This document shows positions 8,521 through 24,955 of a DNA stretch of 64,000 nucleotides, piece by piece. The position numbers and the translations under genes were made by a program. Source of the stretch: Pseudomonadota bacterium (GTDB lineage Bacteria; Pseudomonadota; Gammaproteobacteria; Burkholderiales; Rhodocyclaceae). The stretch covers positions 1-64,000 of the forward strand of contig JAGTRT010000012.1 in assembly GCA_018261895.1 (NCBI GenBank). The letters run 5' to 3'. Positions within the stretch are counted from its first letter, which is position 1, and each line of letters starts with the position of its first letter. A model generated the notes under the pieces. The model was not told where the DNA came from. It saw nothing but the letters and a program-made list of their open reading frames with translations, and searched no databases.

Positions 8521-11500
8521 ATGGACTGGCTCTCGCGGCGAATCCGTGGGTTCAAGAACGCGACTTTCCGACAACAACTTGCAGTCCTGTTTTCCATTGG
8601 CGTCTTGAGCATTTCGCTGCTGGCCGCCCTCGCCACCTCATGGCAGGGTAGCCGCCAGCTTCACGCGAGCAAGCTCGACGATGGCTTGCGCATCACCCAG
8701 ACGCTCGCCACCCAGAGCCGGCTGGCCCTGGCATTCGGCTCGGCCGAAAATGTCTCCGAAGCCATTGAGGCAGCCTCCGCCTTCCCGGATGTCACGCGAA
8801 TCGAAATCCGGCACACCGATGGCCGGACATTGCTTGAACATGGCAAGGCAATTGTCGGCAACACCCTGCCCGCGCCGTCCAACGACGCCCATTCACCGTA
8901 TCTCGACACGGAAACGTCCGACGGATGGCGGTTCGTTGCCCCCGTCTGGTCGATCTCCGGACCAGAGTCGCAATTCGAGACAACCGAACGCAAGGACATC
9001 CTGCTCGGGTTCGTCATCGTCGATCAGAGCAAGGCAACACTGAAAGCGCTCGTCCGCGAAGTGTTCGCCGTGAATTTTGCCGCCGGCATCGCCTTTGCGG
9101 CCCTCTTTGTCGTCGGGGTTGGCCTGCTTGGACGGCGCCTGACGCGACCGCTGGCCAATCTGTCGGAAACGATGGCGCGAGCCGAAAAAGGAGAGAGCGG
9201 ACTACGTGCGGATATCACCGGCCCGCGCGATCTGGCCGAGATGGCGGGGGCTTTCAACAGCATGATGAAAGCCCTGGAGCAGCGCGAACAGGAATTGCGC
9301 GCAGCGCGCGACAGTGCCTTGCGCTTCGCCAAGCTGAAAGCCGATTTCGCCGCCACGCTCAGTCACGAGATCCGCACCCCGCTGAATGGCGTCATCGGCA
9401 CGCTGGACATGCTCAAGATGGGCCGCATGAATGCCGAACAGCAGGAACTGCTCTCGCTTGCCTGGGACTCCTCGCAATATCTGCTCGAACTGATCAACAA
9501 CATCCTCGACTTTTCGCGACTCGAAGCCGGGCGCATGGAGGTCGACACCAGTGATTTCGCAGTCCAGCCGATGCTTGACGGCGTCATCAACATGTTCCAT
9601 GCGCAAGCACTGGGCAAGGGCCTGGCGCTGAGTGCCAGCGTGGCTGCTGATGTCCCCCCGGTCATCAGCAGCGATCTGGCGCGCATTCGTCAGGTCCTGA
9701 TCAATCTGATCGGTAACGCCATCAAGTTTACCGAGCACGGTTCGGTCAACCTGTCGATCGAACGCGTCGAAAACGGCACGCTGCTGCGCTTTGGCATCCG
9801 CGACACCGGCATTGGCATTGCGGAAAATCTCCAGTCGGACATCTTCGATTCGTTTACGCAGGCCGACACCTCGACAACCCGTCGCTATGGCGGCAGCGGT
9901 TTGGGCCTGTCCATCAGCAAGCAGATTGTCCGCCTGCTGGGCGGCGAAATCGGCCTCAACAGCACGCCGGGACTGGGCAGTCATTTCTGGTTCACCATCC
10001 CGTGCGTGACGGGCACCAGCAGCGCGGAAGTGCGCCAGAGCACGACCAGCAAATCATGCCGATCGGCCAAAGTCCTGATTGCCGAGGACAACACCACCAA
10101 CCAGGTCGTGGCCAGCGGCATGCTGCGCCTGCTCGGTTGCACGAGCAGCATTGCCAGGAACGGGGTGGAAGCCGTCAGCCTCTGGCAGTCGGACAATTGG
10201 GACATGATCCTGATGGATTGTTCGATGCCGGAAATGGACGGATTCGAGGCGACCGCCCTCATCCGGACACAGGAGGCGAACACGGGTCGGCGAACGCCGA
10301 TTGTCGCGATGACGGCCAATACCTTGCCCGCCGATATCGAGCACTGTCTGGCTACCGGCATGGACGACCATCTTCCCAAGCCGATGACGATCGAAACACT
10401 CTCGGCTTGCCTGGAAAAGTGGCTGAACTGGCCCACGGAGCAGTCAAGCAGCACCGCCCAATCCATCGACAGCAGTGACGGGCCGCTCGACAGCATGGTG
10501 TTGAAGCGCTTGCGCGAGTCGCTGGGTGCCTCGACTGGTGAAGCGATCAAACCCTTCCTCGAGGATGTGCCTGGCTACCTGTTGAAACTGGACGGCGCCA
10601 TCGCCGCCGGCGATGCCGAAACGATTCGCCAGGTCGCGCATGTCATCAAGGGTGCTGCCGGCAATCTCGGTGCGAGCGCGCTGTCCGGCGTCGCCAGGGA
10701 ACTGGAGTTGCACGCCGAAGCTGGCGCACTCGCCGAGGCCAGCGAACTCCTGCTGCATTTGCGGACCGAATTTGCCATCGTCGAACCGGCATTGCGCAAT
10801 GAACTCGACGCTTTCCCTGACAATCCGCCCCCGATTCACGACGAAGCGCCGGTTGTCCTGGTCGTCGACGACGACCGCAGCACACGTTCCGCCTTGCGGC
10901 ATGCGCTTCACCGCAGCGGTTTCCGCGTCGAGGAAGCTGGCAACGGCCAAGAAGCGCTGGGCTGGCTGGAGAACAACCTGGCCGACGCCATCCTGATGGA
11001 TGCCCTGATGCCGGTCATGGATGGCTTCGCTGCCTGCGCCGCCCTGAAAAGCCATCCTCGCTGGAAGGAGATTCCCATCCTGATGATCACGGCGCTCGAA
11101 GACCGCCAGTCCATCGAACGCGCATTCGAGGTCGGGGCCAGCGATTTCATTCCCAAGCCCATCCATCTTTCGGTGGTCAATCAGCGCGTGCGCCGGGTCA
11201 TCGAAGCCACCCGTGCGCAACGCCACGTTCATCATCTCGCCTACAACGACGCGCTCACCGGGCTGCCCAACCGGCAGCTGTTCATGGAGCAACTGGCCCA
11301 GGCCATCGAGCGTGCGAACACGCACGACACCATGCTGGCCGTGCTCTTCCTCGACCTCGACCGTTTCAAGTTCATCAACGACACGCTGGGCCACGAAGTC
11401 GGCGACAGGTTGCTGGCCACCATGGCCCAGCGACTCAAGGGCTGCGTCCGGGCGGACGACTGTGTCGCCCGTCTGGGTGGCGACGAATTCACCGTCCTCC

Positions 11501-12549
11501 TCGACGACATCCCGCATTCCTCCATTGCCGCGAGCGTCGCCCAGAACATCTGCCGTACGGTCTCGGCCCCGATGATCATCGATGAACAGGAAATCGTCAT
11601 CACGGCGAGCGTCGGCATTTCGCTGTATCCGCAGGATGGCCCCGACCTCAGCCGCCTGCTGCGCCACGCCGACACCGCCATGTATCGCGCCAAGCACAGT
11701 GGCAGCGGCTTCTGCTACTACGAGGCGACGATGGAGTCGGCCGTTTCGGATCGACTGAAAATCGAAAACGATCTGCGCCACGCGCTGGAGCGTGAGGAGT
11801 TCTCGGTCTTCTACCAACCGGTCATCAACACGGTGACGGGCAAGGTGGCCAGCGTGGAAGCGCTGGTGCGCTGGATCCATCCGGAGAACGGCATCGTCTC
11901 GCCGGCGGAGTTCATTCCCATCGCCGAAGAAACGGGCCTCATCCTGCCCCTCGGCGAATTCGTCCTGCGCAGCGCCTGTCGGCAGACCAAGGCCTGGCTC
12001 GACAACGGCTTGCCGGATCTGCGCGTTGCGGTGAACCTGTCTGCCAAGCAGCTCGAACAGCCCGATCTGAAAAACGTCGTCCTCGACGCGCTGAGCGATA
12101 GCGGCCTGCCCGCATCGGCGCTGGTTCTGGAAATAACCGAAAGCGTGCTGATGGAGCGCGCGGAGGAAAGCATCGACCTGCTGCGCGACCTGCGCAGCCA
12201 TGGGATCAATCTTTCCATCGACGACTTCGGGACCGGCTATTCCTCGCTGTCTTACCTCAAGCACCTGCCGGCCAACACGCTGAAAATCGATCGCTCCTTC
12301 GTCCAGGACATTCCGCACGACGAAGACGCCGTGGCCATCGTCACCGGCATCCTGGCGCTGGCCCACAGCCTGCGCATGACCGTCGTGGCCGAGGGCGTGG
12401 AGACTGAGGCGCAACGCGAAACCCTGGCCCGCCTGGAATGCGACTGGCTGCAAGGCTACCTGTTCTCCAAACCGCTGCCGGCCGAAGTCGTCGAAACCCG
12501 GATGCTCGCGCCCAAACGGCGGAAACGCCCGCTGAACAAGCAAAACTGA
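8521..12549 (+). CDS. Hybrid histidine kinase with REC, Hpt, REC, GGDEF and EAL domains
   Basis: A 1342-residue membrane sensor that joins phosphorelay and cyclic-di-GMP turnover. Order seen: TM about 22-44; periplasmic sensor to about 180; TM about 183-205; HAMP; HisKA with LSHEIRTPLNGVIG (H282); HATPase with DTGIGI and GGSGLGLSIS; REC1 (LMDCSMPEMDGFEA, D566); Hpt (AHVIKGAAGNLG, H707); REC2 (VVDDDRS; LMDALMPVMDGF, D827); GGDEF intact at 986-990 with an RADD I-site just upstream; EAL with VEALVRW at 1112-1118, DDFGTGYSSL and AEGVET. Every catalytic motif looks intact, so it could make or degrade cyclic-di-GMP. Its start is four bases after the ABC_sub_bind gene, the likely ligand partner. Confidence 0.93.
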   Translation: MDWLSRRIRGFKNATFRQQLAVLFSIGVLSISLLAALATSWQGSRQLHASKLDDGLRITQTLATQSRLALAFGSAENVSEAIEAASAFPDVTRIEIRHTDGRTLLEHGKAIVGNTLPAPSNDAHSPYLDTETSDGWRFVAPVWSISGPESQFETTERKDILLGFVIVDQSKATLKALVREVFAVNFAAGIAFAALFVVGVGLLGRRLTRPLANLSETMARAEKGESGLRADITGPRDLAEMAGAFNSMMKALEQREQELRAARDSALRFAKLKADFAATLSHEIRTPLNGVIGTLDMLKMGRMNAEQQELLSLAWDSSQYLLELINNILDFSRLEAGRMEVDTSDFAVQPMLDGVINMFHAQALGKGLALSASVAADVPPVISSDLARIRQVLINLIGNAIKFTEHGSVNLSIERVENGTLLRFGIRDTGIGIAENLQSDIFDSFTQADTSTTRRYGGSGLGLSISKQIVRLLGGEIGLNSTPGLGSHFWFTIPCVTGTSSAEVRQSTTSKSCRSAKVLIAEDNTTNQVVASGMLRLLGCTSSIARNGVEAVSLWQSDNWDMILMDCSMPEMDGFEATALIRTQEANTGRRTPIVAMTANTLPADIEHCLATGMDDHLPKPMTIETLSACLEKWLNWPTEQSSSTAQSIDSSDGPLDSMVLKRLRESLGASTGEAIKPFLEDVPGYLLKLDGAIAAGDAETIRQVAHVIKGAAGNLGASALSGVARELELHAEAGALAEASELLLHLRTEFAIVEPALRNELDAFPDNPPPIHDEAPVVLVVDDDRSTRSALRHALHRSGFRVEEAGNGQEALGWLENNLADAILMDALMPVMDGFAACAALKSHPRWKEIPILMITALEDRQSIERAFEVGASDFIPKPIHLSVVNQRVRRVIEATRAQRHVHHLAYNDALTGLPNRQLFMEQLAQAIERANTHDTMLAVLFLDLDRFKFINDTLGHEVGDRLLATMAQRLKGCVRADDCVARLGGDEFTVLLDDIPHSSIAASVAQNICRTVSAPMIIDEQEIVITASVGISLYPQDGPDLSRLLRHADTAMYRAKHSGSGFCYYEATMESAVSDRLKIENDLRHALEREEFSVFYQPVINTVTGKVASVEALVRWIHPENGIVSPAEFIPIAEETGLILPLGEFVLRSACRQTKAWLDNGLPDLRVAVNLSAKQLEQPDLKNVVLDALSDSGLPASALVLEITESVLMERAEESIDLLRDLRSHGINLSIDDFGTGYSSLSYLKHLPANTLKIDRSFVQDIPHDEDAVAIVTGILALAHSLRMTVVAEGVETEAQRETLARLECDWLQGYLFSKPLPAEVVETRMLAPKRRKRPLNKQN

Positions 12550-18798: not shown

Positions 18799-18846
18799 CG
18801 GGCTGATTCCGGAGCGAAGGGAAAGGGCGGCATTATAATCTTCAAC

Positions 18847-19266
18847 ATGTTGCGCTTAGTCCTCGATACCAATGTCGTCCTCGATCTCTTCCACTGGGGC
18901 AACACCGATGCCGTGCCGATCATGGCGGCGCTCGAAGCCGGACGTATCCAGTGCATCGTCGACGCCCGCACCCTCGACGAGTTGCAGCGGGTGCTGACCT
19001 ACCCGCAACTCAAGTTGACGCCCGAGATGATCGCCGAGCGCTACGCCCGCTATACCGGCCTGGTCGAAGTCTTTCCCGAAGGCGAAGCCCCGAAACTACC
19101 CCGCTGCAAGGACCGCGACGACCAGAAATTCCTCGAACTGGCCGCCCGCTGCGGCGCCGATTTGCTGGTCAGCAAGGACAAGGCCCTGCTCAAGCTGCGC
19201 GGCAGAACGACGCTGGGCTTCCAGATTCTCAAACCCGCGGCCGCGTCGCTAATACTGGGCAACTGA
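18847..19266 (+). CDS. PIN-domain protein (putative toxin-type ribonuclease)
   Basis: A 139-residue PIN domain of the TIGR00305-like class. N-terminal LVLDTNVVLDLFHWG has the first acidic pair; ARTLDELQRVL carries the second; CKDRDDQKFLELAARCGADLLVSKD carries the third, seen here as KDRDDQKFLELA and ADLLVSKDKALL. Such proteins are predicted Mg-dependent RNases, many of them toxins. No antitoxin gene lies upstream or downstream, so it is either a stand-alone member or an orphan. TATAAT at 18834-18839 sits seven bases before the ATG and no Shine-Dalgarno is visible, which could mean a leaderless transcript. Confidence 0.8.
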   Translation: MLRLVLDTNVVLDLFHWGNTDAVPIMAALEAGRIQCIVDARTLDELQRVLTYPQLKLTPEMIAERYARYTGLVEVFPEGEAPKLPRCKDRDDQKFLELAARCGADLLVSKDKALLKLRGRTTLGFQILKPAAASLILGN

Positions 19267-19393: not shown

Positions 19394-20329
19394 ATGGCGA
19401 ATATCGTCTGGATGCAAGCAGGCGCCTGCAGCGGCGACAGCATGGCCTTGCTCTGCGCGGACCGCCCCAGCCTGGAAGGCTTGCTGCAGCACCATGGCCT
19501 GAATCTCCTCTGGCACCCGTCACTGACCGCTGACCGGCGTTTCGGGCAGGTGCTCGACGCCGTGACCAGCGGCCGCGAGGCGCTCGACATCCTGTGCATC
19601 GAAGGCAGCCTGCTCACCGGCCCCGATGGCAGCGGCCAGTACGACACCTGGAAAGGCCGCGCCAAGATCGACATCATTCGCGAGCTGGCAGCGCTCGCCA
19701 CGCACGTGGTGGCAATGGGGACCTGCTCCGCCTTTGGCGGCGTGCATGCCGCCGGCCCCAACCCGACCGACTGCACCGGACTGCAATTCCTCAAGGACAA
19801 GCCTGGCGGCCTGCTCGGTGCCGACTGGCGGGCACGCAGCGGCCAGCCGGTCATCAATGTCGCCGGCTGCCCGGCCCACCCGAACACCATGACCAAGGTA
19901 CTGGCCATGCTCGGCGAAGGCGAAACGATAGCGCTCGATGCCCTCAACCGGCCTGCCGCCTTCTTCAGCAGCCTCGTGCACCAGGGCTGCACGCGCAACG
20001 AGTATCACGAGTACGACATCGAGGACGACGTGCTGGGCGGACGTGGCTGCATGTTCTTCAGCCTCGGCTGTCGCGGCCCGCAGACCGAAGCGCCGTGCAA
20101 CACGGAACTGTGGAATGGCCGCAACAGCAAGACGCGCGCTGGCGTGCCCTGCTTCGGCTGCACCTCGCCCGACTTCCCGGCCAACCGGGATCTCTTCGTG
20201 ACACCGAAGATCGGTGTCGTGCCGAAGATACTGCCGCTCGGCGTGGCCCGGGCGAAATACATGGCGTACAAGAACCTCGCCCGGGCCGCCGCCCCCGAGC
20301 GTGTCGTCAATCGCGAGATGGAGCCATGA
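19394..20329 (+). CDS. [NiFe] hydrogenase small subunit, cytosolic sensor-like
   Basis: A 311-residue Fe-S subunit with no Tat signal, so cytosolic, as in sensory (HupU/HoxB) and other group 2 enzymes. N-terminal VWMQAGACSGDSMALL has Cys12 but Asp15 where most small subunits have the second Cys of CxxC; the other two proximal ligands appear as MGTCSAFGG (C111) and VAGCPAHPNT (C159). Medial and distal cluster cysteines lie in LVHQGCTRNEY, GRGCMFFSLGCRGP, APCN and GVPCFGCTSPDFP. A 3Cys-1Asp proximal cluster is known from the actinobacterial-type group 1h enzyme. AAGGAGAGACACC precedes the ATG. The stop overlaps the large-subunit start (ATGA). Confidence 0.92.
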   Translation: MANIVWMQAGACSGDSMALLCADRPSLEGLLQHHGLNLLWHPSLTADRRFGQVLDAVTSGREALDILCIEGSLLTGPDGSGQYDTWKGRAKIDIIRELAALATHVVAMGTCSAFGGVHAAGPNPTDCTGLQFLKDKPGGLLGADWRARSGQPVINVAGCPAHPNTMTKVLAMLGEGETIALDALNRPAAFFSSLVHQGCTRNEYHEYDIEDDVLGGRGCMFFSLGCRGPQTEAPCNTELWNGRNSKTRAGVPCFGCTSPDFPANRDLFVTPKIGVVPKILPLGVARAKYMAYKNLARAAAPERVVNREMEP

Positions 20330-21843
20330 GCCGCATCACCGTCGACATCGATCTCAACCGCGTCGAGGGCGACCTCGAATTCCAGCTTGACCTCGAAGAT
20401 GGCGTGGTTGTCGATGCGCGCTGCATCGGCACGCTGTATCGCGGTTTCGAGCAGATCCTGATCGGTCGCGCGCCGCGCGACGCGCTGGTCATCACGCCGC
20501 GCGTCTGCGGCATCTGCGGCACCGCCCAGCTCTACGCTGCGACGCTGGCGCTGGAGCAGATCGCCGGCATCACGCCCCCGCCCCATGCCGTGCTGGTCAG
20601 GAACCTTTGCCTGATGGCCGAAACGCTGCAAAGCGACCTGCGCCAGACTTTCCTGTTCTTCACGCCCGACTTCTGTAACCCGCGCTACGCCGCCCACCCG
20701 CTGGCGGGGGAACTGGCCGATGCCTTCGCGCCGCTCAAGGGCAGCGTCGTCCGCGGCTGCCTGCAAAGCACGCGCGAACTGGTCGGCATCGTCGCCATCT
20801 TCGGCGGCCAGTGGCCGCACTCGACCTACATGCTGCCCGGCGGCATCACCCAGCCGGCCAATGCGCGTCGACTGCTCGATGCCGGCGACATTCTCGCCAA
20901 CGTCCGGAGCTGGTTCGAGCAGGCCGTCATCGGCGGCGATCTCGACGAATGGATGGCACTCGACAGCGGCGACGCCCTGTTCCGCTGGATGGCCGCCACC
21001 CCGGCGCGCCAGCGCAGCGCCCTCGGCCTGTTCAACCGCTTTGCCCGCGACATCGGCCTGCACCAGGTCGGCGCCGGCACCGGCCACCTGCTCAGCTACG
21101 GCGTCAATCATCGCCCCGACGGCGCCGGCAGCGAACTGCCGGCCGGTTTTTTCAATGCCGACACCCAGCAGGTCGAAGCGCTCGACCACCTGCAGATCAA
21201 CGAACACGTCCGCCACAGCTGGTTCCTCGATTACCCCGGCGGACGCCACCCTTGGGCTGGCGAAACCATCCCCGACCACCAGCCGGGCAGCGACCGCTAC
21301 ACCTGGGCCAAGGCCCCGCGCTACGGCGACAAGGTGGTGCAGACCGGCCCGCTGGCCGAACTGCGCATGGCCGGCGAGCCACTGATCACCGACCTGCTGG
21401 CCAGCGAAGGCGACAACACCTGGCTGCGTCAGTTTGCCCGCCTGCGCCGCGCCGGCTGGCTGTTGAATGCAGCGGTCAACGCCAAAAAACAGCTAAAAAC
21501 GAAATGCGACGAACCGCACTTCATCGACCCGAAAATCGACGTCTGGCCGGATGGCGAAAGCTACGGCCTGATCGAGGCGGCACGGGGGGCGCTCGGCCAC
21601 TGGCTGCGCATCAAGGACGGCGTCATCGAGAAATACCAGATCGTCACGCCGACTGCCTGGAACGCCTCGCCGCGCGACAGCATCGGGCGGCACGGCCACT
21701 GGGAACAAAGCATCATCGGCCTGCGCGTGGACGATCCGGAAAACCCGGTGGAGATCGGCCACATCGTGCGCTCCCACGATCCCTGCCTGGTGTGCACGGT
21801 CCATTTCATCGGCAGCCACAGGAAAACGCATTTCAATGTCTGA
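20326..21843 (+). CDS. [NiFe] hydrogenase large subunit, cytosolic sensor-like
   Basis: A 505-residue catalytic subunit holding the NiFe(CN)2CO site. N-terminal [18 protein letters not shown]1 motif [10 protein letters not shown] with C61 and C64; L2 motif DPCLVCTVH with C487 and C490. After H493 there is a 12-residue tail ([12 protein letters not shown]). The short CxxCTVH ending and lack of export partner place it with group 2 enzymes; sensory members such as HoxC are reported as unprocessed, so the tail deserves attention together with the protease domain in the next gene. The stop overlaps that next gene by eight bases. No electron-acceptor subunit and no hyp genes are in the window. Confidence 0.92.
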
Positions 21844-24800
21844 CCGGATGCGCATCCTCTGTTTCGGCAACCCGTTGCACGGCGACGACGGTTTCGGGCC
21901 GACCGTCGCCCTGGCGCTGAAGCGGGCCAACCTGCCGGCAGAGATCAAGGTCATCGAGTGCGGCACGCGCGGGCTCGACGCGCTGCATTTCTTCGCCGAC
22001 TGCCCGCATGTCGTCGTGGTCGATGCCATGGCCGGCAACCAGCCCGGCAAGCTGCACCTGCTCAAGCCCGAGAGCGTGCCGGTGGAAACCGGCGGCAGCG
22101 GCGGTCATGGCGCCGGCGTCGGCTACCTGCTCGCCGCCGTTCGCGAAACCATGGCGGTCAAGCCGATGATCGAGGTCATTGCCGTCGAGATCGGCCCGGT
22201 CAAGACCTTCTCGCCCGGCCTGTCGATCGAGGTGGCGGCGGCCGTGGCCGAAGCCACTGAAGTGATCCGGCGCTGCCAATCCCCCTCGACCTTCGGCCAC
22301 GACTGCGAACTGTCGGCGGAACTCGACGGCTTGCGCCAGGCCAACCTGGCGCTGGAAAGCGAACTCATCAAGAGCACCGGCGCGCTTGAGTTGCTGATCG
22401 CCGAGCAGGAAGCGCAGCAGGACGAACTGCGCCTGCGTTCGCAGGAACTTGCGCAGTTGCATGGCGCCCTGGAACGGGCCATCGGCACGATGGCCGAAAT
22501 CTTTGTCATGCTCGGGCCGGATGGCCGCATCGTCCGCGTTAACCGCCTGATCGCCCGCGAGCTGGGTTACAGCCCGGAAGACATCGTCGGTGGCTATTTC
22601 GAGGATTGCCTGCCCGACGCCGGTCGCGACCAGTTGCGCCGGCTGTTGCCGCCCAACCGCGACACGCCGCTGCTGCTCAACGCCATCCGCGCCGCCGGCC
22701 GCCACTTCGAGGCCGAGCTGAATTTCCGCTACGCCGGGTCGGCCAGCGACGACAAGACCACGGTGCCCTATCTGGTTCGCGCCAGCCTGATCCACAGCCA
22801 GGCCGGCAAGCTGGAAGGCGCCGTCGTCGTGTCGACCAATATCGCCACCCTCAAGGCGCGCGAGAAGGCCCTGCGCGAGAATGAACGCAAGTTGCACGAA
22901 ACTGCCGAGGAATTGCGCGATCACCGCGACAACCTGGCAGCCATGGTCAACGAACAGACGCACGACCTGCGCCAGGCCAAGGAACAGGCCGAGGAAGCGA
23001 GCCGGGCCAAGAGCAATTTCCTGTCGAACATGTCGCACGAGGTGCGCACGCCGCTGACCGCCATCCTCGGCCTTTCCGACCTCTGCCTGCGCACCTCGCT
23101 CGACGACCAGCAGGCGCAATACCTGACCAAGATCCGCCTGGCCGCCAATCACCTGCTCGGCATCATCAACGACATCCTCGATTTTTCGCGCATTGAGGCC
23201 GGCAAGCTCGACATCGAGCAGGTCGCCTTCGACCTGCCCTCGCTGCTCGACGAAATCACTGACCTGCTCATCGAGCGCATCGAGGAAAAGGGCTTGGAAC
23301 TGTGCGTCGATCTTGCGCCCGACGTGGCGGGCAGTTTTGTCGGCGACCCGCTGCGCCTCAAGCAGGTCATCATCAACCTGCTCGGCAATGCCATCAAATT
23401 CTCCGAAAAAGGCACCCTGCGCCTGTGTTGCGAACCGAGCAGCGATGGCGCGAAAGGCCTGCACTTCTCGGTCAGCGACGAAGGCATCGGCATCTCGCCG
23501 GAGGAGCAAGGCATGCTGTTCTCGGCCTTCAGCCAGGCCGACACCTCGACCACCCGGCGCTACGGCGGCTCGGGCCTTGGCCTCGCCATTTCCAAACGTC
23601 TGGTCGAACTGATGGGCGGACATATCTGGCTGGAGAGCGAACCCGGACACGGCAGCACCTTCCATTTCGATGCCGAATTGCAGGCCGCGCCGAATACCCA
23701 GCCATCGGCAACCGAACTCGCCACGCACCTGGCCGCCCACGCCGGCAGAAGCATCCTGATCGTCGACGACAATCCGCGCCTGGCGGAAAGCATGGCCCGC
23801 CATGCCCGCCAGCTCGGGCTGCAGGCGGTGATCAGCCCGAGCGGCGAAGCGGCGCTGAACATGCTGACCGACCCGGCGGCCGACTACCTCGTAGCCCTCA
23901 TCGACTGGCAGATGGCGCCAGGCATGAGCGGCACGGAAACTATCGCCGCCGTGCGGAAGCAGCTCGGCGAGCGGGCGCCGGCCTGCATCCTGCTCGCGCC
24001 GCACAACGCCTGCGCCCTGCCGGCACCGGGCGTTTCGCCAATCGGCGCGACGCTGCTCAAGCCGGCCAGCCTGCGCCGTCTCTATTCGGCGCTCGCCGTC
24101 CCGCTCCACCTGCCGTCCATCCCGACCCTGCCGACGACCACGCCGCTGCCCGACTATGCGTCGGTCGCCCACCTGCACGACGCGGACATTCTGGTCGTCG
24201 ACGATGTCGAGCTGAACCGCGACCTGATGAAGGAACTGCTCGCCACGGCCGGCTTCAAGATCCGCCTGGCCAGCGATGGCAAACAGGCGATTGCGAGCAT
24301 TCACCGCAAGCGTCCGGACCTCGTCCTCATGGATTGCCAGATGCCGATCATGGATGGCTTTGCAGCCACCCGCCAGCTGCGAGCCGAGGCGGAATACGCC
24401 GGGCTGCCGATCATCGCCCTGACGGCCGGCGCGCTGGAGCACGATCGCCAGCAATGCATCGCCGCCGGCATGAACGCCCACATCACCAAACCGGTCGATC
24501 TCGACAAGCTGCTGCGCCTGATTGCCGAGCTGCTCGGGCGCGACGCCGTGCCGGAACGAAGCGTCGAAGTGGCCGCACCCCTGCCGCCGGAAACGCCGCC
24601 CGCAACGCTACCCGACCTGCCGGGCGTCGACATCCAGCGCGGCCTGCGCCTGATGCGCAACAAGGTCGAGTTCTACCGGGTCATGCTCATCCGCTTCCGC
24701 AACAGCTACGGCGCCAACTTCGCCACCGACCTGTGCACGGCCCTCACGCAGCACCGCATGAGCGATGCGCTGCGCCTGGCACACACGCTGAAAGGCATGG

Positions 24801-24955
24801 CGCGCAACCTGGGCATCGAGGAACTGGGCAACCTGGCGGCAGCGCTCGAAGAGGAACTCAAGGACGAGCAAGCTCAGCAAACGCCGCCCAGCCTGGAAAG
24901 CCTGCTGGCCGAGATGGTGAGGATTGCCGACAGCCTGCAGGCGCTCGGCGACTAA
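21836..24955 (+). CDS. Hydrogenase-maturation-protease domain fused to hybrid histidine kinase
   Basis: A 1039-residue soluble fusion. Residues 1-150 are a HybD/HupD-type [NiFe] hydrogenase maturation protease domain: [25 protein letters not shown] and [11 protein letters not shown] align with HybD so that D18, D63 and H91 fall on the Ni ligands E16, D62 and H93. Then a coiled coil (about 160-220), a PAS domain (about 220-330), a second coiled coil, HisKA ([15 protein letters not shown]401), HATPase ([10 protein letters not shown]), REC (D690), REC ([13 protein letters not shown]833) and a C-terminal Hpt ([13 protein letters not shown]983). There is no output domain, so signal must pass to another regulator. 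It overlaps the large-subunit gene by eight bases, so all three proteins are made together; most simply it is the kinase reading H2 occupancy of the hydrogenase. Confidence 0.92.

Follow-up and report, generated by a model that had tools for sequence, protein, structure and literature searches.

A predicted maturation protease domain at the N terminus of a hybrid histidine kinase encoded behind a putative group 2c [NiFe] hydrogenase

The maturation endopeptidases of family PF01750, such as E. coli HybD (1cfz), HycI and HupD, are free proteins. Here we describe a member of this family that instead makes up the N-terminal part of a histidine kinase, encoded in a 64,000-nucleotide stretch from a bacterium of the Rhodocyclaceae (assembly GCA_018261895.1, contig JAGTRT010000012.1, positions 1 to 64,000; hereafter the window). 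The window protease is like its free counterparts in fold, in its metal-ligand residues and in its place beside a large subunit that bears a C-terminal extension. The three residues concerned (D/E, D and H) are those that we take to be the metal site of HybD. Three overlapping genes at 19394-24955 encode the small subunit, the large subunit and the fused protease-kinase, in agreement with a preliminary description of this stretch, which had gone on to propose that the kinase docks on, or reads, the NiFe site through a protease-derived domain. We lean, if only slightly, towards another function, that of a bifunctional protein in which a working maturation endopeptidase and the sensor kinase of one and the same hydrogenase are tethered together. 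In some bacteria one protein appears to link the assembly of the hydrogenase physically to signalling, so that the broader idea of that description, maturation and signalling joined in a single chain, is retained. The hydrogenase encoded beside the fused protein is a probable H2-sensing enzyme, and the kinase probably reports its sensing. No description of a HycI-histidine kinase fusion was found in the accessible portions of the open-licence full-text literature; relative to that literature the protease-kinase layout is new, and its parts are of known kinds. That the fusion occurs naturally is evidence from genomes for joint action of the protease, the hydrogenase and the output protein. Several of the genomes that bear it are single-contig, so the coupling can be tested.

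HoxJ, the kinase to which the preliminary description had likened the window protein, has PAS-type regions. With the regulatory hydrogenase it forms an H2-sensing complex (PMC10073562; this and the other articles are cited from excerpts). As in the group 2b systems HoxBC-HoxJ and HupUV-HupT, a PAS-bearing histidine kinase stands in the same locus as the hydrogenase, and this part of the comparison holds. On the whole it is a loose one, as the large subunits of group 2b are without a C-terminal extension (PMC7294309), whereas that of the window carries one of 12 residues. A 2b-like large subunit is encoded elsewhere in the window genome (G000:C41:22965-24896, the same as L011:5965-7896). It ends exactly in DPCMVCTVH without an extension and shares its gene cluster with an NtrC-type regulator, an arrangement that matches the description of regulatory hydrogenases (PMC7294309). 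The window genome may therefore operate two H2-sensing systems in parallel. HydDB names group 2b histidine kinase-linked and group 2c 'Diguanylate cyclase-linked (putative)', the role of the latter being given as undetermined (PMC5037454). Methylobacter is reported to have groups 1d, 1e, 2c and 3d in varied combinations (PMC12810054), and the large subunits of Methylobacter relatives with GGDEF-EAL output are 60-61% identical to that of the window. It is from this similarity and the Methylobacter inventory (PMC12810054), rather than from HydDB itself, that the window hydrogenase is putatively assigned to group 2c. Both have a group 2 hydrogenase adjoining a PAS-bearing output protein, but the window output is a hybrid kinase with a protease fused to it, and there is no diguanylate cyclase link. 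With a kinase, yet also an extension and a protease, the window system fits neither the 2b nor the 2c label exactly. Operons of group 2a, or Huc, comprise HucS, HucL, the Rieske protein HucE and HycI (PMC12319191). Huc is the nearest solved chain to the window large subunit in a PDB sequence search (7uus), and its free protease and Rieske partner are found again in the group 2c-like relatives, but it is an uptake enzyme without a kinase tie. Two H2-sensor designs can be set apart in this way, 2b, which lacks an extension, and 2c, which has one and in most cases a neighbouring protease as well.

The fused gene (21836..24955; this and all features below with window coordinates lie on the + strand unless stated otherwise) encodes 1039 residues, of which 1-147 (21836..22276) form a HycI/HybD-type maturation protease domain. 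The domain scores 51.8 bits with PF01750 against a curated cut-off of 23; structure prediction, which the preliminary description had suggested as a check, gave the protease fold with AlphaFold2, and Foldseek and VIA-align matched it to HybD. A chance match was rejected because the profile, the PDB sequence search and the fold point the same way, and with the metal site they bear out the naming of the domain as a maturation protease. In the alignment to HybD, D18 (21887..21889), D63 (22022..22024) and H91 (22106..22108) take the first, second and third metal-ligand positions, as had been read earlier from the letters. All three are retained in 17/17 fused proteins, a count outside which two more, L207 and L208, stand, and in 74/74 free proteases of the surveyed loci. 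The PF01750 cut-off is also exceeded in L054, L055, L207 and L208. Behind the protease, Pfam and the alignment identify the parts of a hybrid histidine kinase, namely the HisKA histidine, HATPase_c, the REC aspartate and the Hpt histidine. A separate start for the kinase was sought as ATG only, and no methionine column in residues 140-175 is common to more than 5 of the 17 fused proteins.

Relatives were collected by a large-subunit alignment scan of genome contigs, and the best 80 of 582 confirmed candidate loci were compared. The protease is fused in 5 of them (L051-L055), free and downstream on the same strand in 64, and was not found in 11 (L079, L102, L103, L106, L110, L115, L116, L119, L121, L124 and L126). 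The free protease starts less than 200 bases from the end of the large-subunit gene in 55 of the 56 loci measured; in L094 it lies about 4 kb downstream. Within the window genus this protease type (E <= 1e-25) occurs in 17/76 genomes, fused in 16 and not fused in G543. The family of Thiorhodococcus drewsii gave matches in 7/146 genomes, comprising three fusions (T. drewsii itself, G590, with G713 and G641), two free proteases whose operon resembles that of the fused ones (G708, G634) and two weaker matches beside another hydrogenase type (G715, G731). In the sample of the window family 89/150 genomes have a protease match (threshold 0.001), and among the best 20 loci only the window genome (G000) and G112 carry the fusion. 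Matches at 1e-12 were present in 83/369 genomes of the class sample, where the window alone was fused among the 30 loci retrieved, and the phylum sample yielded 2/398 at 1e-25, the window and one in a 171-residue frame. Fusions of another origin were absent among the loci checked for a histidine kinase in the protease frame, a check outside which stand the long protease frames of G121, G009, G055, G088, G143 and G029 (782 residues) in the family sample and of G233, G269 and G467 in the class sample.

Altogether the fusion was found in 19 distinct genomes, 16 in the window genus (one per species) and 3 gammaproteobacterial, L051, L052, L053 and L055 being the same records as G535, G567, G550 and G562. 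A sequencing or assembly artefact, which the preliminary description had named as a possible refutation, was rejected on this recurrence and on four single-contig genomes of the same genus (G112, G518, G529 and G563); the fusion of a protease to the N terminus of a hybrid kinase is confirmed by Pfam, by fold and by these genomes. The search for further HycI-HisKA fusions that had been proposed placed every one of them beside a hydrogenase large-subunit gene. In 19/19 the fused gene follows that gene directly. The protease motif begins 16-28 bases past the large-subunit stop in the 18/18 loci measured, and the 19th, L208, where the motif pattern missed, has the same gene order by its frame coordinates. 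Together with the free protease downstream in 64/80 loci, this constancy ties the domain to the window type of hydrogenase, as first supposed.

In a tree of large subunits (59 rows) the 7 fused loci form one clade with a Shimodaira-Hasegawa-like approximate likelihood-ratio (SH-aLRT) value of 99, and the state changes between fused and free once. The protease-domain tree (65 rows) likewise gathers its 16 fused members in one clade (SH-aLRT 97.7) with one change. Both trees were built quickly, carry no bootstrap values and contain some long branches; 26 of the 62 inner branches of the protease tree are weak. From one clade and one change on each tree we infer a single origin, which would have been an event that merged a protease gene with the sensor gene downstream of it into one reading frame. 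The unfused locus L035 has the protease at 9457-9924 and the sensor gene from 9921, with a 4-base overlap. Such an arrangement also agrees with a neutral fusion, an explanation we consider fairly unlikely, in which neighbouring genes ran into one frame, each part works alone and the tether gives only equal amounts. The adjoining protease and sensor genes of unfused relatives, overlapping as they do in L035, speak for it, as do the short, weakly predicted linker that AlphaFold2 places between the two units and the variable letters of that linker. However, a neutral fusion fits less well with its presence in 16 species of one genus and in 3 gammaproteobacterial genomes, with its persistence while the domain diverged to 53-79% identity with that of the window (six other fused rows), and with the lack of any re-split descendant on trees that each hold one change.

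The tether between a working protease and the sensor kinase draws support from the state of the protease domain. With a full metal site and a 12-residue extension next to it, the domain resembles a functioning protease whose substrate lies close by, and is predicted from its letters to be one. The extension (21805..21840) ends the large subunit of the window, and the neighbouring large subunit carries one of this length, 12 residues, in 19/19 fused loci. Over the 16 fused genes of the genus the median ratios of nonsynonymous to synonymous change (dN/dS) are 0.29 for the protease, 0.26 for the PAS domain, 0.26 for the histidine kinase and 0.23 for the second REC, as against 0.59 for the first REC, 0.38 for the Hpt and 0.63 for the linker before the Hpt; these ratios are rough because synonymous sites are well changed (median proportion of synonymous differences, pS, ~0.5). 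That the domain is an inactive leftover, dead or kept for another substrate, is highly improbable, as metal ligands in 17/17, purifying selection and the retained extension all oppose it and we found no point in its support. The full metal site in fused and free proteins alike and the constant extension also tell against the protease-derived dock or reader of the preliminary description.

Among the best 80 loci the extension has 5 residues or fewer in four only, L103 (0 residues), L106 (5), L115 (4) and L119 (5), all without a nearby protease. A strict rule that an extension occurs only with a neighbouring protease was discarded, as there are exceptions among these loci. The distant relative L103 (9001-10485) has a large subunit that ends in DPCLVCTVH without an extension, and no protease was found nearby. 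The C-terminal motif is DACLVC rather than DPCLVC in the distant relatives L094, L098, L100, L115, L117, L118 and L124, and DHCMVC in L107.

The protease domain is joined through a linker (residues 148-155, 22277..22300), seen as a low-confidence gap in the AlphaFold2 model, to a coil-PAS module identified by hidden Markov model search and AlphaFold2 (22301..22840), which consists of a helix (156-218) and a PAS domain (219-335). A profile built from residues ~158-357 returned 49 proteins above 150 bits, among which L036 and L074 are the same record. In these the module also fronts kinases and GGDEF-EAL proteins that are encoded downstream of a free protease. It is preceded by HycI in 7 (the fused proteins), by a Rieske domain in 21 and by neither in 21; the output is a histidine kinase in 26 and GGDEF-EAL in 20, and was not determined in the other 3. 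The more distant loci of the 80 gave a weak score or none. As unfused relatives have the module without a protease domain, it is the likelier receiver, and by this comparison of sequences the signal of the hydrogenase is probably received there. The 21/49 with neither front domain further suggest that signalling in this family can probably do without the protease domain. For these reasons we give little credence to the proposal that the domain docks on or reads the NiFe site as signal input. Close to that proposal, and equally doubtful in our judgement, is an input or checkpoint domain, in which precursor binding or release after cleavage alters the kinase, so that it reports maturation or nickel supply with or without H2. 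The protease does sit at the usual site of an input domain, directly before the continuous 63-residue helix that runs into the PAS domain, and the same site holds a Rieske domain, likely in contact with the hydrogenase, in 21/49 related proteins. Against this, another 21/49 have neither front domain yet the same coil-PAS, and as the metal-ligand residues are intact nothing indicates that the protease has been turned into a pure sensor.

The family thus presents one coil-PAS receiver with exchangeable front domains (protease, Rieske or neither) and exchangeable outputs (kinase or GGDEF-EAL). The outputs paired with it range over plain histidine kinases, hybrid histidine kinases and GGDEF-EAL proteins (e.g. 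L056, L059, L073 and L035). The N-terminal Rieske [2Fe-2S] domain stands ahead of coil-PAS in many kinases and GGDEF-EAL proteins of group 2c-like loci. It passes the Pfam cut-off in L037:8453-10588, L059:10989-13619 and L206:3063-5189, and the motif CxH...CxxH is present in 19/21 Rieske-fronted proteins; in L076 and L082 the Rieske match falls in a frame of its own, upstream of the sensor. A path for electrons from the hydrogenase to the sensor is suggested by these domains.

The preferred reading, a working protease tethered to the sensor kinase of its own hydrogenase, would proceed as follows. The Hyp machinery would insert nickel and iron into the large subunit, after which the N-terminal domain would check the nickel-loaded precursor and cut off the 12-residue extension. 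The kinase would thereby be placed on a hydrogenase just finished. H2 oxidation at the mature enzyme would then alter the kinase via coil-PAS, as in the unfused relatives, and phosphate would pass from HisKA to REC to Hpt and on to a response regulator encoded elsewhere; none was found among the four annotated neighbours of the operon. In a bolder reading, a shade less probable than the input domain above, the protease would sense nickel in the precursor and remove the extension, and the kinase would be licensed to sense H2 only after that. If true, cofactor insertion would be the first input to the kinase, and one chain would serve both as a checkpoint on maturation and as a sensor of gas.

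Several observations weigh against the tethered working protease. Cleavage, the H2 response, the contact and the phosphate path are all read from what the protein families do. H2 sensing by group 2c is itself only 'putative' in HydDB (PMC5037454). In the AlphaFold2 model of residues 1-389 (predicted TM-score, pTM, 0.54) a short, weakly predicted linker leads into the long helix and the orientation of protease and PAS domain is not fixed; the coil and PAS folds rest on Pfam and this model itself. The window genome has two PF01750 matches, the fused domain and one beside a large subunit on C41 that we take for group 1 (our own label). This position beside another large subunit speaks for the tethered reading, but the second protease could in principle process the window large subunit. 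Among the 11 loci without a nearby protease, 7 still have an extension, 11-17 residues long (L102, L110, L116, L121, L124, L126 and, at a contig end, L079); a protease encoded at another place can apparently do the work. The reverse is seen outside the 80 in L042 and L044, where a protease accompanies an extension of only 5-6 residues.

The other genes and domains of the locus are as follows. The small subunit (19394..20329, 311 residues; Pfam Oxidored_q6 and NiFe_hyd_SSU_C) starts directly at its FeS part, its residue 4 being already position 53 of NCBIfam hydA, and there is no space for a Tat signal. The large subunit (20326..21843), of group 2 type and putatively 2c, matches Pfam NiFeSe_Hases at 2e-79 and was also placed in a 12-row alignment. 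In the fused protein a second signalling helix (residues 336-390, 22841..23005; AlphaFold2) leads to the Pfam-defined domains HisKA (391-456, 23006..23203; phospho-acceptor H401 in 17/17 fused proteins), HATPase_c (503-614, 23342..23677), a first REC (~645-770 by our own bounds, 23768..24145; D690 in 13/17), a second REC (785-896, 24188..24523; D833 in 17/17) and Hpt (964-1031, 24725..24928; H983 in 16/17, the T. drewsii protein stopping before the Hpt). The first REC evolves fast, and its aspartate position is a gap in 3/17 and histidine in 1/17 fused proteins; given its dN/dS and an aspartate not kept in all, it is probably dispensable. Simple patterns revealed no sigma-54 or FNR sites in 19 upstream regions (18 fused, 1 free).

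The neighbours of the locus are, on one side, genes for a PIN-domain protein and a dihydrouridine synthase and, on the other, genes for a rhodanese (opposite strand) and for YaaA; the PIN-domain gene (18841-19266) is directly upstream of the hydrogenase operon. The window genome assembly has 3.3 Mb in 93 contigs and is 85% complete. HycI proteases of ~370 residues were seen behind another hydrogenase type (L041:9986-11095, L043:7135-8244 and L049:5660-6772); by the predicted frame they have ~215 additional N-terminal residues, where L041 has no Pfam match. Elsewhere in the window, 8521-12549 encodes a protein of 1342 residues, whose HAMP, HisKA, HATPase, Hpt, REC, GGDEF and EAL domains combine a phosphorelay and cyclic di-GMP (c-di-GMP) turnover in a single chain.

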